Origin: an uncultured Candidatus Saccharibacteria bacterium
Lineage (GTDB): Bacteria > Patescibacteriota > Saccharimonadia > Saccharimonadales > Saccharimonadaceae
DNA length: 37,115 nucleotides
Direction: 5' to 3'
Assembly: GCA_947570505.1 (NCBI GenBank)
Contig: CANOTH010000009.1
Coordinates: 1-37,115 of the forward strand
A model generated the notes under the pieces. It had not been told where the DNA came from, made no database searches, and saw only the letters and a program-made list of their open reading frames with translations. Positions within the stretch are counted from its first letter, which is position 1. The number at the start of each line of letters is the position of its first letter. Shown piece by piece: positions 28,786 to 31,909 of this stretch. The translations under genes were made by a program, and so were the position numbers.

Positions 28786-28853
28786 GATGTTGTAAAATTA
28801 ACAACATTATCTCTAGCAACTTTGTTGCGCAGGCTCCAAATTGACAAAAACTA

Positions 28854-28882
28854 TTGACTATTTTATAAAAGTGTGCTATAAT
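28854..28882 (+). promoter_or_regulatory. Promoter of a candidate small RNA
   Basis: TTGACT (28854-28859), a 17-bp spacer and TATAAT (28877-28882). A second TTGACA lies at 28841-28846. No reading frame of any size follows on this strand before a terminator. Confidence 0.8.
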
Positions 28883-28888
28883 GAAAGT

Positions 28889-29008
28889 ACGTATGGTAGC
28901 CTAGAGCGAAAGCTCTATTAGCGCCGTTAAGGACTGCAAAGGTCAATCATCCTGTAGTCCAATACGGAAGGGCATATCATACAAAGGCGGATTTACTCCG
29001 CCTTTTTT
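28889..29008 (+). ncRNA. Candidate structured small RNA, about 120 nt
   Basis: Between a strong promoter and a terminator lies a segment that folds as a three-way junction. P1: GTATGGTA (28891-28898) with TATCATAC (28975-28982). P2: TAGAGC-GAAA-GCTCTA (28902-28917), a GNRA tetraloop hairpin. P3: CCGT plus GGACTGCA (28924-28938) with TGTAGTCC plus ACGG (28953-28967). A terminator AAAGGCGGA / TCCGCCTTT (28983-29005) with a T run ends it. I compared it by eye with 4.5S/SRP, 6S and tmRNA features and found none. Its last bases overlap, on the opposite strand, the 3' end of the gene at 28993-29430. Confidence 0.6.
28983..29008 (+). terminator. Rho-independent terminator of the small RNA
   Basis: Nine-pair stem AAAGGCGGA / TCCGCCTTT with a short loop and six T. 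The loop contains the stop codon (28993-28995) of the opposing gene. Confidence 0.85.
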
Positions 29009-29430
29009 GAAACGCAGAATACACTATAATACCTCAGCTTGCCACCATTACCAATTCGTCGCAGTATTACAGCAATCTCGTATCTGATACCATTAACCCT
29101 AATTTCCGAGCATAAACGGTAATAGTAGACGACTTTGGTTTTGCCGTTTATACTCTGAGCCCTAGTCGTTTCTTTTTCGTATTTAGTCGCATTAGCAACT
29201 AGTTCTGGAACGAAAGGTAAAAGATTAAGACGTAAACGTTGATCGACCTCGTTTCTACTCATACCTCTACCGTTATGAGTAGCATGGTAGAATCCGTCAG
29301 CGCTGAAAAGCACTGACTCTCCACCAAATGCTGGGCAGCACACCAGACTGTAGTTTTTATATTCCTTTCTCCTCAATGATTCTAGCTTTCGGATAGGCTT
29401 TTTGTGAGTTTCTTTAAAGACGATATTAAT
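28993..29430 (-). CDS. Small basic protein, possible barnase/RelE-like fold; unusual start
   Basis: No usual start codon fits well. A strong AGGAGG (29436-29441, minus strand) lies 6 nt before an ATT at 29428-29430, giving about 145 aa beginning with a start read as Met then NIVFKETHKKPIRKLESL; the next possible start is TTG at 29374-29376 without a Shine-Dalgarno site (127 aa). The product is rich in Lys, Arg and Tyr. Its C-terminal part (VVYYYRLCSEIRVNGIRYEIAVILRRI, then GKLRYYSVF) resembles in plan the beta sheet of small barnase/EndoU/RelE-like toxins and LPD-type phage domains, but this is a weak impression and no active site is assigned. It may be accessory DNA. Confidence 0.5.
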   Translation of the reverse strand: MNIVFKETHKKPIRKLESLRRKEYKNYSLVCCPAFGGESVLFSADGFYHATHNGRGMSRNEVDQRLRLNLLPFVPELVANATKYEKETTRAQSINGKTKVVYYYRLCSEIRVNGIRYEIAVILRRIGNGGKLRYYSVFCVSKKAE

Positions 29431-29540
29431 TTTGGACCTCCTACTTTATGAAAATGTCTGTCTTACTATATACTGTTGGCCCACCTAACTACCCACAATT
29501 ATACCATGCGAAAGTTATAAGTTTTTTGTAAAACACTTAA
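29431..29540. promoter_or_regulatory. Upstream region of the small basic protein gene
   Basis: On the minus strand TGG-TATAAT (hexamer about 29499-29504) is an extended -10 box, giving a leader of about 65 nt that ends in AGGAGG. No other gene is visible here. Confidence 0.45.
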
Positions 29541-29595: not shown

Positions 29596-30192
29596 CTAGT
29601 CAGTAGTGGAAGCAGTTAAGACTACAGTTGCCTTGTATTCACCAGCAGGTAGACTTGAACCAGCGGTTGCTCCGAAGGCGAGCTTGGTAGTATAGACCTG
29701 CTTATCAGCATTAGTGGTCCAGCCAGCATCTGAATCTGTAACACTCACGACATCTTTGCTGCCTGTAGCTGGCACACCGAACCAGTTGCCCGTATCGTTA
29801 ACTTGGTAACCCCAAGAGTTGGTACCACCAGTTAAAGTAGTGACACCGGCAGCATCTGCAATCGCAGGGATAGAAGTATTGGTTTCGCTATTCATCAAAG
29901 CATTTCCGCTCGGAGCACTAATCTTCAATGAGTAAGCAGTAGCACTGTTGCCAGAAACTGTGACGGTTAATTCATTATCGCCAGCATTCTCACCAGTAGC
30001 GACACCGTTTAGTTTTAGGGTGCCTAGATCAACCTCAGTCTTATCGACGGCGATTGAGATAGCACCTTCAACCGTGGTTTTTACCGTGGTTTCGGTTGGT
30101 ACATCATAAGCATACGAACTCAGTGGCAATGCAGCTACACCAAGACCAGCTACAACACCTAAGACTGCGATAGCTTTTGACATTTTAGACAT
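29596..30192 (-). CDS. Phase-variable secreted surface protein B (predicted OFF)
   Basis: 198 aa. The signal peptide (1-28, MSKMSKAIAVLGVVAGLG... to SSYA) is identical in DNA to that of protein A at 31307-31909. The mature part is an all-beta, Thr/Ser/Val-rich domain with VDLGTL, TVTVSGNSATAYSLKISA, SWGYQ and AGEYKATVVLTAS, a pattern common in small secreted proteins of Saccharibacteria and reminiscent of WxL or pilin-like beta sandwiches; only one Trp motif is seen, so it is not a true WxL protein. AGGAG precedes the ATG. The promoter is incomplete: CATAAT with no -35 in this orientation of the invertible segment. Confidence 0.85.
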   Translation of the reverse strand: MSKMSKAIAVLGVVAGLGVAALPLSSYAYDVPTETTVKTTVEGAISIAVDKTEVDLGTLKLNGVATGENAGDNELTVTVSGNSATAYSLKISAPSGNALMNSETNTSIPAIADAAGVTTLTGGTNSWGYQVNDTGNWFGVPATGSKDVVSVTDSDAGWTTNADKQVYTTKLAFGATAGSSLPAGEYKATVVLTASTTD

Positions 30193-30257
30193 AAATTTCT
30201 CCTTTTGATTTTTGTCTTTTACTTGTTTATTTATATGACCTTTGTAATTGTTATTAT
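30109..30257 (-). repeat. Left 149-bp arm of the invertible segment
   Basis: Exact reverse complement of 31242-31390. Read on the minus strand it runs from five bases of the -10 box (ATAAT) through the leader and AGGAG to the last codon of the signal peptide of protein B. Divergence starts on the next base on both sides. Confidence 0.95.
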
Positions 30258-30286
30258 GTTGATATAAATAACGTTAAAGGAGTAAA

Positions 30287-31189
30287 ATGTCATACCACCT
30301 AGAGCAGGTCACGTCAAAACATAGCCGTATCTATCGACAAGTAGAGAATTATTATATTTATTGTGAACAGATTCGGGGCATGAGCCCAACTACCATGATT
30401 AGCAAAGTCTATACCATTAATCAGTTCATTGCTGTTACTCGTATAACAGATTTGCGCAAACTTTCCAACCGCCAAATCTACGATTGGATTAATTACCAAT
30501 TCAGCCGAGGCAACACTGGGCGCACGATCAATGATCGCTTAGCACATCTTAGGGCAATGTTGCATTGGCAGCAAAATATGAATGTCGTAATGCCCCATTT
30601 GCAGCTGGGTCTGATCACTAAAGCTAAGGAAGTACCGCCGCGCCAAGTTTGTTTTTCACGTCAAGAAATTCAATCCGTCTTAGCTACCGCAGATATCCAA
30701 GAATGGTTGCTGATTAAACTGGCTTTCGATTGCGGTTTACGAATCAGCGAGCTGTGTAAACTACAGCTCAACCATCTTCATGATGATGGCCGCATTTCTA
30801 TTCTCGGCAAAGGCAGTAAAAGGCGGTATGCCTATCTATCGCCCGAAGTGCAGTATAAACTACAGGTCTGGATTGCCGATCATTGCATTAATAAATATCT
30901 TTGGCCTAGCCCAATTTATCCTGATCAGCCACTAGCAACCTGTACCATTCGGCAGAAAATGCGAGATGCTTTTAGTCGGGCCGGGTTCAAGGATTTTCGG
31001 CCACACGATTTGCGACATTCATATGCAACTGATCTTAAGAAAATCGGTATTCCAACCCGTAAGATTCAGGCGGGTCTTGGCCATGCCTCAGAGGCTACTA
31101 CCGAACGATACTTGAGCGATTTGATCGGCTGGGATCTTTATGAGCTCTATCAGCAGAAATATAATTACTCGTCGGTCAGTGAGTGCTAA
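30287..31189 (+). CDS. Tyrosine recombinase (XerC/D-like), predicted invertase of the surface switch
   Basis: 300 aa. An N-terminal SAM-like DNA-binding domain (about 12-100) is followed by the catalytic domain with the full set of residues: R152 (CGLRISELCKL), K175 (GKGSKRR), H240 and R243 (RPHDLRHSYATDL), H266 (GLGHAS) and the nucleophile Y275 (TERYLSD). It cuts and rejoins DNA through a Tyr-DNA link without high-energy cofactors. It sits alone between two perfect inverted repeats, so it probably inverts its own gene together with the adjacent promoter. AAAGGAG (30275-30281) sets the start; TATAAA at 30263-30268 is a weak possible -10. It is not likely to be the chromosome-dimer XerC or XerD because of this setting. 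Confidence 0.92.
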   Translation: MSYHLEQVTSKHSRIYRQVENYYIYCEQIRGMSPTTMISKVYTINQFIAVTRITDLRKLSNRQIYDWINYQFSRGNTGRTINDRLAHLRAMLHWQQNMNVVMPHLQLGLITKAKEVPPRQVCFSRQEIQSVLATADIQEWLLIKLAFDCGLRISELCKLQLNHLHDDGRISILGKGSKRRYAYLSPEVQYKLQVWIADHCINKYLWPSPIYPDQPLATCTIRQKMRDAFSRAGFKDFRPHDLRHSYATDLKKIGIPTRKIQAGLGHASEATTERYLSDLIGWDLYELYQQKYNYSSVSEC

Positions 31190-31217
31190 AAATTGCAAAA
31201 ATTGTGCGAAAAACGTA

Positions 31218-31246
31218 TTGACTTAAGCATAACCATCCTATATAAT
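31218..31246 (+). promoter_or_regulatory. Movable promoter of the inversion switch
   Basis: TTGACT (31218-31223), a 17-bp spacer and TATAAT (31241-31246). The -35, spacer and first T lie in the unique invertible segment; ATAAT belongs to the repeat arm. Inversion would join this -35 to the arm of gene B and leave gene A with CATAAT and no -35. Confidence 0.88.
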
Positions 31247-31390
31247 AACAATTACAAAGGTCATATAAATAAACAAGTAAAAGACAAAAATCAAAAGGAG
31301 AAATTTATGTCTAAAATGTCAAAAGCTATCGCAGTCTTAGGTGTTGTAGCTGGTCTTGGTGTAGCTGCATTGCCACTGAGTTCGTATGCT
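31242..31390 (+). repeat. Right 149-bp arm of the invertible segment
   Basis: Exact reverse complement of 30109-30257. It covers ATAAT of the -10 box, the leader, AGGAG and codons 1-28 of protein A. Perfect identity over 149 bp between genes whose mature parts differ greatly points to continuing exchange between the arms. Confidence 0.95.
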
Positions 31391-31909
31391 GCGGATGCTG
31401 ATGGTGTGATGCCACAATCCGAGAATGTCACTGTGCAAGCAGAGGTTGGCGGTTCTATCTCACTAGAAATTGCCGGTGAGACTGGTAGCAATTTCAATGC
31501 TGACACCAATACTCTCGATTTAGGTAAGATCATCGTTGGCGCCGCTGACCCAATCACTGGTGCTATCAAAGCTACTGTTTCTACTAACGAAACTTTGAAT
31601 TATGCTTTGACTATCCGTACCGCTACAACTGAAACTGCTATGAAGAATGCTAATGGTAACTCGATTCCAGCTGGCGATCCAAAGGGAACCACATCAGCTT
31701 GGGGCTATTCAACTGACAGTGGTACAACCTTCAAGCCTGTACCTGCCACTGCTACTTCACTGTTAGCGACTAATCCAGGTAGCTTGAATGGTACTGGCGA
31801 AACTGCTGCTACAGCTGATACCACCATTACCTTTGGTGTTAAGGCTGATTCTAATCAGGCTCCAGGTGTCTACTCTAACCAAGTAGTTATCACTGCTTCT
31901 GTTAAATAA
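31307..31909 (+). CDS. Phase-variable secreted surface protein A (predicted ON)
   Basis: 200 aa, starting at the ATG (31307) that follows AGGAG. The signal peptide (1-28, ending SSYA) is identical to that of protein B. The mature domain is beta-rich: VTVQAEVGGSISLEI, LDLGKIIVGA, ATVSTNETLNYALTIRT, TSAWGYSTDSG and APGVYSNQVVITASVK, in the same order as in protein B, so the two are distant paralogues with alternative mature sequences. It has no membrane anchor or LPXTG signal and probably binds partners at the surface, perhaps the DUF916-like proteins encoded downstream. A longer frame starting at 31193 is ignored because it crosses the promoter. Confidence 0.88.
   Translation: MSKMSKAIAVLGVVAGLGVAALPLSSYAADADGVMPQSENVTVQAEVGGSISLEIAGETGSNFNADTNTLDLGKIIVGAADPITGAIKATVSTNETLNYALTIRTATTETAMKNANGNSIPAGDPKGTTSAWGYSTDSGTTFKPVPATATSLLATNPGSLNGTGETAATADTTITFGVKADSNQAPGVYSNQVVITASVK

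Follow-up and report, generated by a model that had tools for sequence, protein, structure and literature searches.

The window analysed here is a 37,115-nt contig (CANOTH010000009.1, positions 1–37,115, forward strand) from the assembly of an uncultured Candidatus Saccharibacteria bacterium (GCA_947570505.1). Between its uvrA gene and a surface-protein cassette lie a small structured RNA and, on the opposite strand, a gene for a protein with an LPD3 domain (PF18798). The two are arranged tail to tail, and the 3′ edge of the RNA overlaps the end of the LPD3 gene (stop at 28993) by about 16 nt. The features of the locus are as follows.

28854–28882, plus strand: sigma-70-type promoter of the RNA, TTGACT-17-TATAAT with an extended −10 element; recurs genus-wide
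28889–29008, plus strand: predicted transcript, three-way-junction RNA with terminator (from sequence, fold and relatives)
28891–28902, plus strand: 5′ strand of helix P1, pairing with 28970–28982 around a bulged A at 28974; pairing kept in relatives
28903–28916, plus strand: P2 hairpin, AGAGC-GAAA-GCUCU, with a GNRA tetraloop (from fold and relatives)
28924–28967, plus strand: P3, comprising P3a (CCGU/ACGG), a 3×3 internal loop (UAA/AAU), P3b (GGACUGC/GUAGUCC) and a long apical loop
28970–28982, plus strand: 3′ strand of P1 (from fold)
28983–29008, plus strand: intrinsic terminator hairpin and U run, overlapping the 3′ end of the LPD3 gene
28993–29430, minus strand: LPD3-domain protein (PF18798), putative toxin (from a Pfam match and an AlphaFold model)
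29498–29503, minus strand: possible −10 element TGGTATAAT of the LPD3 gene, picked by eye, with no good −35 and weaker than the RNA promoter

The original prediction for this locus, made without database searches, described a transcript of about 120 nt with a near-consensus promoter, three compatible helices (one of them GNRA-capped), a strong terminator and no reading frame, fitting none of the common RNA families recognisable by eye. All of this is borne out. The promoter matches 11 of 12 consensus positions, with the −35 at 28854, the −10 ending at 28882 and TG preceding the −10. The 120-nt RNA has a predicted minimum free energy of −52.6 kcal/mol, compared with −27.4 ± 4 kcal/mol for shuffled sequences (z −6.3; 0 of 200 shuffles as good), and P1, GNRA-capped P2, P3 and the terminator hairpin are all present in the predicted fold. 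The terminator, GGCGGA-UUUAC-UCCGCC followed by UUUUUU, can be read in both sequence and fold; a consensus terminator scan did not list it, possibly because A–U pairs of the stem take up part of the T run. The only frames in the region encode 26 amino acids on the plus strand, starting upstream of the promoter, and 27 on the minus strand, and neither is convincing. In Rfam 15, the window RNA has no match at the gathering score (chance-level matches only, E up to 10), nor do its relatives; signal recognition particle RNA, 6S RNA, tmRNA and riboswitches were rejected as its identity for want of an Rfam match. The element is confirmed as a discrete three-way-junction RNA of no assigned family. 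The RNA was thus described correctly, whereas the partner gene, and hence any function, was overlooked.

A convergent RNA of like architecture accompanies LPD3 genes in several Patescibacteria families. Of the LPD3 genes examined, 11 keep an uninterrupted frame (the window, L056, L058, L059, L068, L069, L075 and L098–L101), and all 11 have the RNA beside them, the end of P1 falling between −2 and 39 nt from the stop of LPD3. At L056, L057, L058 and L059, the opposite strand 3′ of LPD3 carries a three-armed RNA behind a strong promoter, in most cases with a terminator. The same layout is present at other LPD3 genes in the order (L067, L068, L069 and L073), at a locus from sheep jejunum (L075) and at the four genes from other families (L098–L101). 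By genome within the order, the overlap between RNA and LPD3 gives a Fisher p of ~3e-10, an approximate value since relatives are not independent. No complete LPD3 gene without the RNA was found among the loci examined. Conversely, the RNA is retained beside LPD3 genes broken by frameshifts or stops (L057/L077, L067 and L073) and occurs as an orphan with no LPD3 gene at L094, while at L076 a single deletion removed both. This loss pattern, in which the RNA outlives LPD3 and the reverse is never seen for complete genes, fits a toxin and its antidote. The genetic pairing of RNA and LPD3 is well supported by these sequence comparisons. The RNA family linked to LPD3 is absent from Rfam and previously undescribed; no account of an RNA–LPD3 module was found in the literature searched, which leaves out most subscription papers and preprints.

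Three covariance models were built, from the window RNA alone (R1), from four RNAs (R2) and from nine RNAs of one order (R3). Training of R2 and R3 left out the window, L059, L094 and L098–L101. Beside each of the four LPD3 genes from other families, the RNA was the best R3 match (L101, 47.7 bits; L100, 44.2; L098, 21.2; L099, 19.6; E 4e-12 to 6e-4), and R3 also recovered L059 (18.9 bits, E 0.001). Among 344 genomes of the order, eight R3 matches had E < 1e-12; seven adjoin LPD3, six of these coming from the training set, and the eighth is the orphan at L094, which was new. Matches of R3 in genome G363 (L095) and of R2 in G089 (L083) lay within genes, as did the two weak matches of R1, within coding sequence; all were rejected.

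The window RNA itself is a divergent member. Its R2 score is 14.5 bits, with an E of 0.16 in a search of 87 kb, and for R3 it was the best match within 500 bp, at the exact position (8.8 bits, E 0.033); elsewhere in the genome of the window R3 gave insignificant matches only. It shares the family architecture, namely the GNRA-capped P2 (also found in L057, L059, L068, L069, L075, L098 and L100), a CCG-N-UAAGGA stretch leading into P3 and a GGAA-type joining strand. R3 overlooks this divergent RNA under default filters, so the case for its membership draws on position, architecture and the weak model matches taken together. DNA-level searches gave promoter matches only, covering 174 genomes of the genus (no BLAST-level relative), phage and plasmid collections and, with the exact core pattern, GTDB contigs; exact RNA patterns had no match in viral contigs.

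The original prediction proposed a covariance check in relatives, and there the pairing of P1, P2 and P3 is kept through paired changes. In an alignment of 15 relatives, standard pairs account for 96.7% of cells, and at 15 of the 19 pairs both sides have changed (13 of 19 with the window included). The covariation score reaches 0.549, as against 0.250 in shuffles, and when the partner strand is slid, pairing drops to at most 47%. Fitting of the alignments to the model structure inflates these figures, but some swaps can be made out by eye: GAGC/GCUC becomes GGG/CCC in P2, and CCGC/GCGG becomes CUGU/ACAG in P3a. In the family, P1 is frequently GUGCUUGU/ACAAGCAC, P2 is frequently GNRA-capped, P3 contains a 3×3 internal loop whose 5′ strand usually reads UAA and whose 3′ strand usually reads UAA or UAC, and GGAAA stands ahead of the 3′ strand of P1.

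A copy of the RNA is also carried by a phage. R2 matched (E 7e-12) a 30.8-kb siphophage contig in G013 that bears terminase, portal and tape-measure genes. No LPD3 gene was found on this contig or in the other viral contigs searched. The phage RNA domain, at G013:C12:15179–15267, bears the conserved GUCUCUGUUA and GGAAAUGCAGGCA and lies inside a longer structured stretch of this Saccharibacteria siphophage (G013:C12:15067–15370; L084, L081), in which hairpins and the LPD3-associated RNA domain are followed by a tRNA-like 3′ element. The latter has an acceptor stem GAGAGGA/UCCUCUC and a T arm GGUGG-UUCGACU-CCACC; ARAGORN makes no call. The whole stretch could be a multi-part decoy RNA. Phage phiTE carries a pseudo-ToxI and evades ToxIN by RNA mimicry (PMC3475682), and the G013 domain may be a parallel case. 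On the same contig, a reverse transcriptase gene (L084:253–1275, phrog_1423) lies just ahead of the terminase gene.

The LPD3 gene of the window encodes a stand-alone, mixed alpha/beta protein of about 140–145 amino acids that scores 33.7 bits against PF18798 (Pfam gathering cut-off, 27). The probable start is an ATT at 29430, six bases past AGGAGG; the first conventional start, a TTG at 29376, would remove most of the first helix. Protein searches found LPD3 in five further genomes of the genus, and the relatives retrieved by name belong to metagenome assemblies of ruminant gut labelled 'Candidatus Saccharibacteria bacterium'. In Pfam and NCBIfam the protein matches LPD3 alone, and in PADLOC nothing; no toxin of ToxN, CptN or TenpN type was recognised by these profiles, which may miss remote kinship.

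AlphaFold models of the window and L075 proteins (pLDDT, the predicted local confidence score, 86 and 82) show three helices together with a four-stranded meander. Foldseek pairs the window model with LPD3 domains from phage polyvalent proteins, at best with E 7.5e-5 and TM 0.57. With VIA-align, both models have ribonuclease toxins as their top matches: for one model, the CdiA-CT structure 6cp9 (Z 5.7), the RelE-type 7vd7 (4.9), 7m5f (4.7) and RelE 2khe (4.3), and for the other, 7vd7 (5.4), BrnT 3u97 (4.2) and 6cp9 (3.7). Such Z values of 3.7–5.7 may stem merely from a common arrangement. Two residues, His50 and Ser137, are invariant and agree with the pattern of a His and a C-terminal Ser/Thr in BECR ribonucleases (PMC5512222). 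We infer that LPD3 may be a small RelE/CdiA-like, BECR-type endoribonuclease, its ribonuclease activity being a reasoned guess from these matches and residues.

We consider it probable, with appreciable room for doubt, that the RNA is the partner of LPD3, most likely its antitoxin, and neutralises it by direct binding. The RNA, made from the stronger promoter, would fold into the three-way junction, bind LPD3 directly and hold it inactive, as type III antitoxins do. If the RNA supply were lost, for instance because a phage had halted host transcription, the toxin would be freed; a phage bringing an RNA domain of its own could escape. Somewhat short of probable is the wider proposal of a new Patescibacteria class of RNA antitoxins, in which a single three-way-junction RNA, encoded tail to tail with an LPD3 ribonuclease, neutralises it directly, serves in phage defence and is copied, as an RNA domain, by a Saccharibacteria phage as counter-defence.

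Several observations weigh against these readings. LPD3 is familiar chiefly as part of phage polyvalent proteins, and its description names neither a function nor an RNA (PMC5512222). Foldseek found nothing in the PDB at E < 0.001, with NTF2-like folds ranking top, and the toxin matches from VIA-align all fall below Z 8. The R3 default-filter miss over the whole window and the inflated pair counts count on the same side, as does a truncated LPD3 gene in genome G386 (L070/L086) that has no RNA match, an observation that was also rated neutral.

An alternative is that the RNA acts, as in convergent Gram-positive type I systems, by antisense to the LPD3 messenger, blocking or degrading it through its 3′ end or a read-through 3′ untranslated region. 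The convergent layout suits this, as does the overlap of the RNA terminator with the 3′ end of the LPD3 gene, and a read-through messenger would be fully complementary to the RNA. However, antisense action requires no internal helices, whereas the stems of the RNA co-vary across large divergence, and the RNA is present in trans, in the phage and as an orphan. Complementarity to the LPD3 start region is inconsistent (z +1.6 to −4.5 at eight loci, from a crude duplexfold calculation with starts that are not all exact), and the mixed alpha/beta protein of ~140 amino acids is not a small hydrophobic peptide. The conserved self-structure, the orphan copy and the phage copy therefore favour a folded RNA acting in trans, and we regard antisense pairing as unlikely.

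A folded RNA could also be a cofactor or guide that activates an LPD3 nuclease, the pair being a ribonucleoprotein effector instead of a toxin with its antidote. Obligate pairing with a nuclease-like protein agrees with this, but the RNA has no apparent guide-like variable segment, the phage has the RNA alone, and retention beside broken LPD3 genes is better suited to an antidote; we rate such a role as rather improbable. Least credible, at a very low probability, is an independent small regulatory RNA of this species that stands beside LPD3 by chance and perhaps targets the neighbouring surface-protein genes. Its P3 loop and the 5′ untranslated region of the nearby MSKMSK genes have CAAAGGUCA in common (by eye), and the absence of BLAST-level relatives in the 174 genomes of the genus also speaks for it. 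Yet nine common letters are near chance for the stretches compared, and a like architecture occurs at a like place beside LPD3 across the phylum.

In relatives, other genes follow uvrA, and in L025 the same cassette follows it with no RNA–LPD3 module; the ~0.65-kb RNA–LPD3 unit is therefore accessory. Since RNA and LPD3 are absent there, synteny downstream of uvrA was uninformative as a guide to the RNA. The promoter string TATTGACTWTTTTA-AAGTGTGCTATAAT (window 28850–28890) occurs in each of the 118 genomes of the genus that were searched, often at several sites, and precedes many different genes as a strong promoter type across the genus. Another strongly structured leader, without an Rfam match, lies behind the same promoter type upstream of an operon (L005:1530–1670, G032). 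The neighbouring cassette (window 30102–31397) contains a 156-nt inverted repeat, 98% complementary (30102–30257 and 31242–31397), that flanks a tyrosine recombinase gene (30287–31189); the arms coincide with the 5′ ends of a pair of MSKMSK surface-protein genes that face outward. From its sequence, it looks like an invertible phase-variation cassette, and a similar arrangement is present in L025. The source assembly, of which the window is contig C9, spans 72 contigs and 1.23 Mb, with contamination of 6.5%, against 0.5–0.9 Mb in most relatives of the genus. It may be a mixed bin, though the window contig is placed in the genus by uvrA and the promoter type.

If the antitoxin reading is right, it would give a function to the orphan domain LPD3 along with an RNA family new to Rfam, and would bring an RNA antitoxin to the Patescibacteria, whose genomes are very small and for which no such module was found in the literature searched. 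The phage-borne RNA copy makes a role in defence and counter-defence directly testable.

Compared with the LPD3 domains of phage polyvalent proteins, the protein here stands alone and has an RNA partner. Convergent Gram-positive type I systems, such as par of pAD1, txpA/RatA and bsrG/SR4, encode small hydrophobic peptide toxins, and their RNAs act by antisense pairing. The RNA–LPD3 module resembles them in its tail-to-tail layout with overlapping 3′ ends; in contrast, its RNA keeps a fold of its own, and LPD3 is not a small hydrophobic peptide. The BECR-fold ribonuclease toxins (RelE, BrnT, CdiA-CT and PBECR) include the nearest structural neighbours of both LPD3 models and share the conserved His and C-terminal Ser, but in the cases compared the partner is a protein antitoxin or an immunity protein, and the resemblance of LPD3 is weak (Z 6 or less).

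The type III systems ToxIN, CptIN and TenpIN likewise pair a protein gene with a short structured RNA as a conserved module, and the phage RNA copy recalls the pseudo-ToxI of phiTE. Type III loci are bicistronic, with RNA repeats, a terminator and then the toxin, and their repeat units are pseudoknotted (PMC5086642). That layout, with tandem repeats upstream on the same strand and a terminator between, is not found in the RNA–LPD3 module, where the genes are convergent, the RNA is a single unit and LPD3 has no Pfam match to type III toxins. Its predicted fold is a nested three-way junction backed by covariation. On our best reading, the module would work in the way of type III systems while departing from the layout that defines them.
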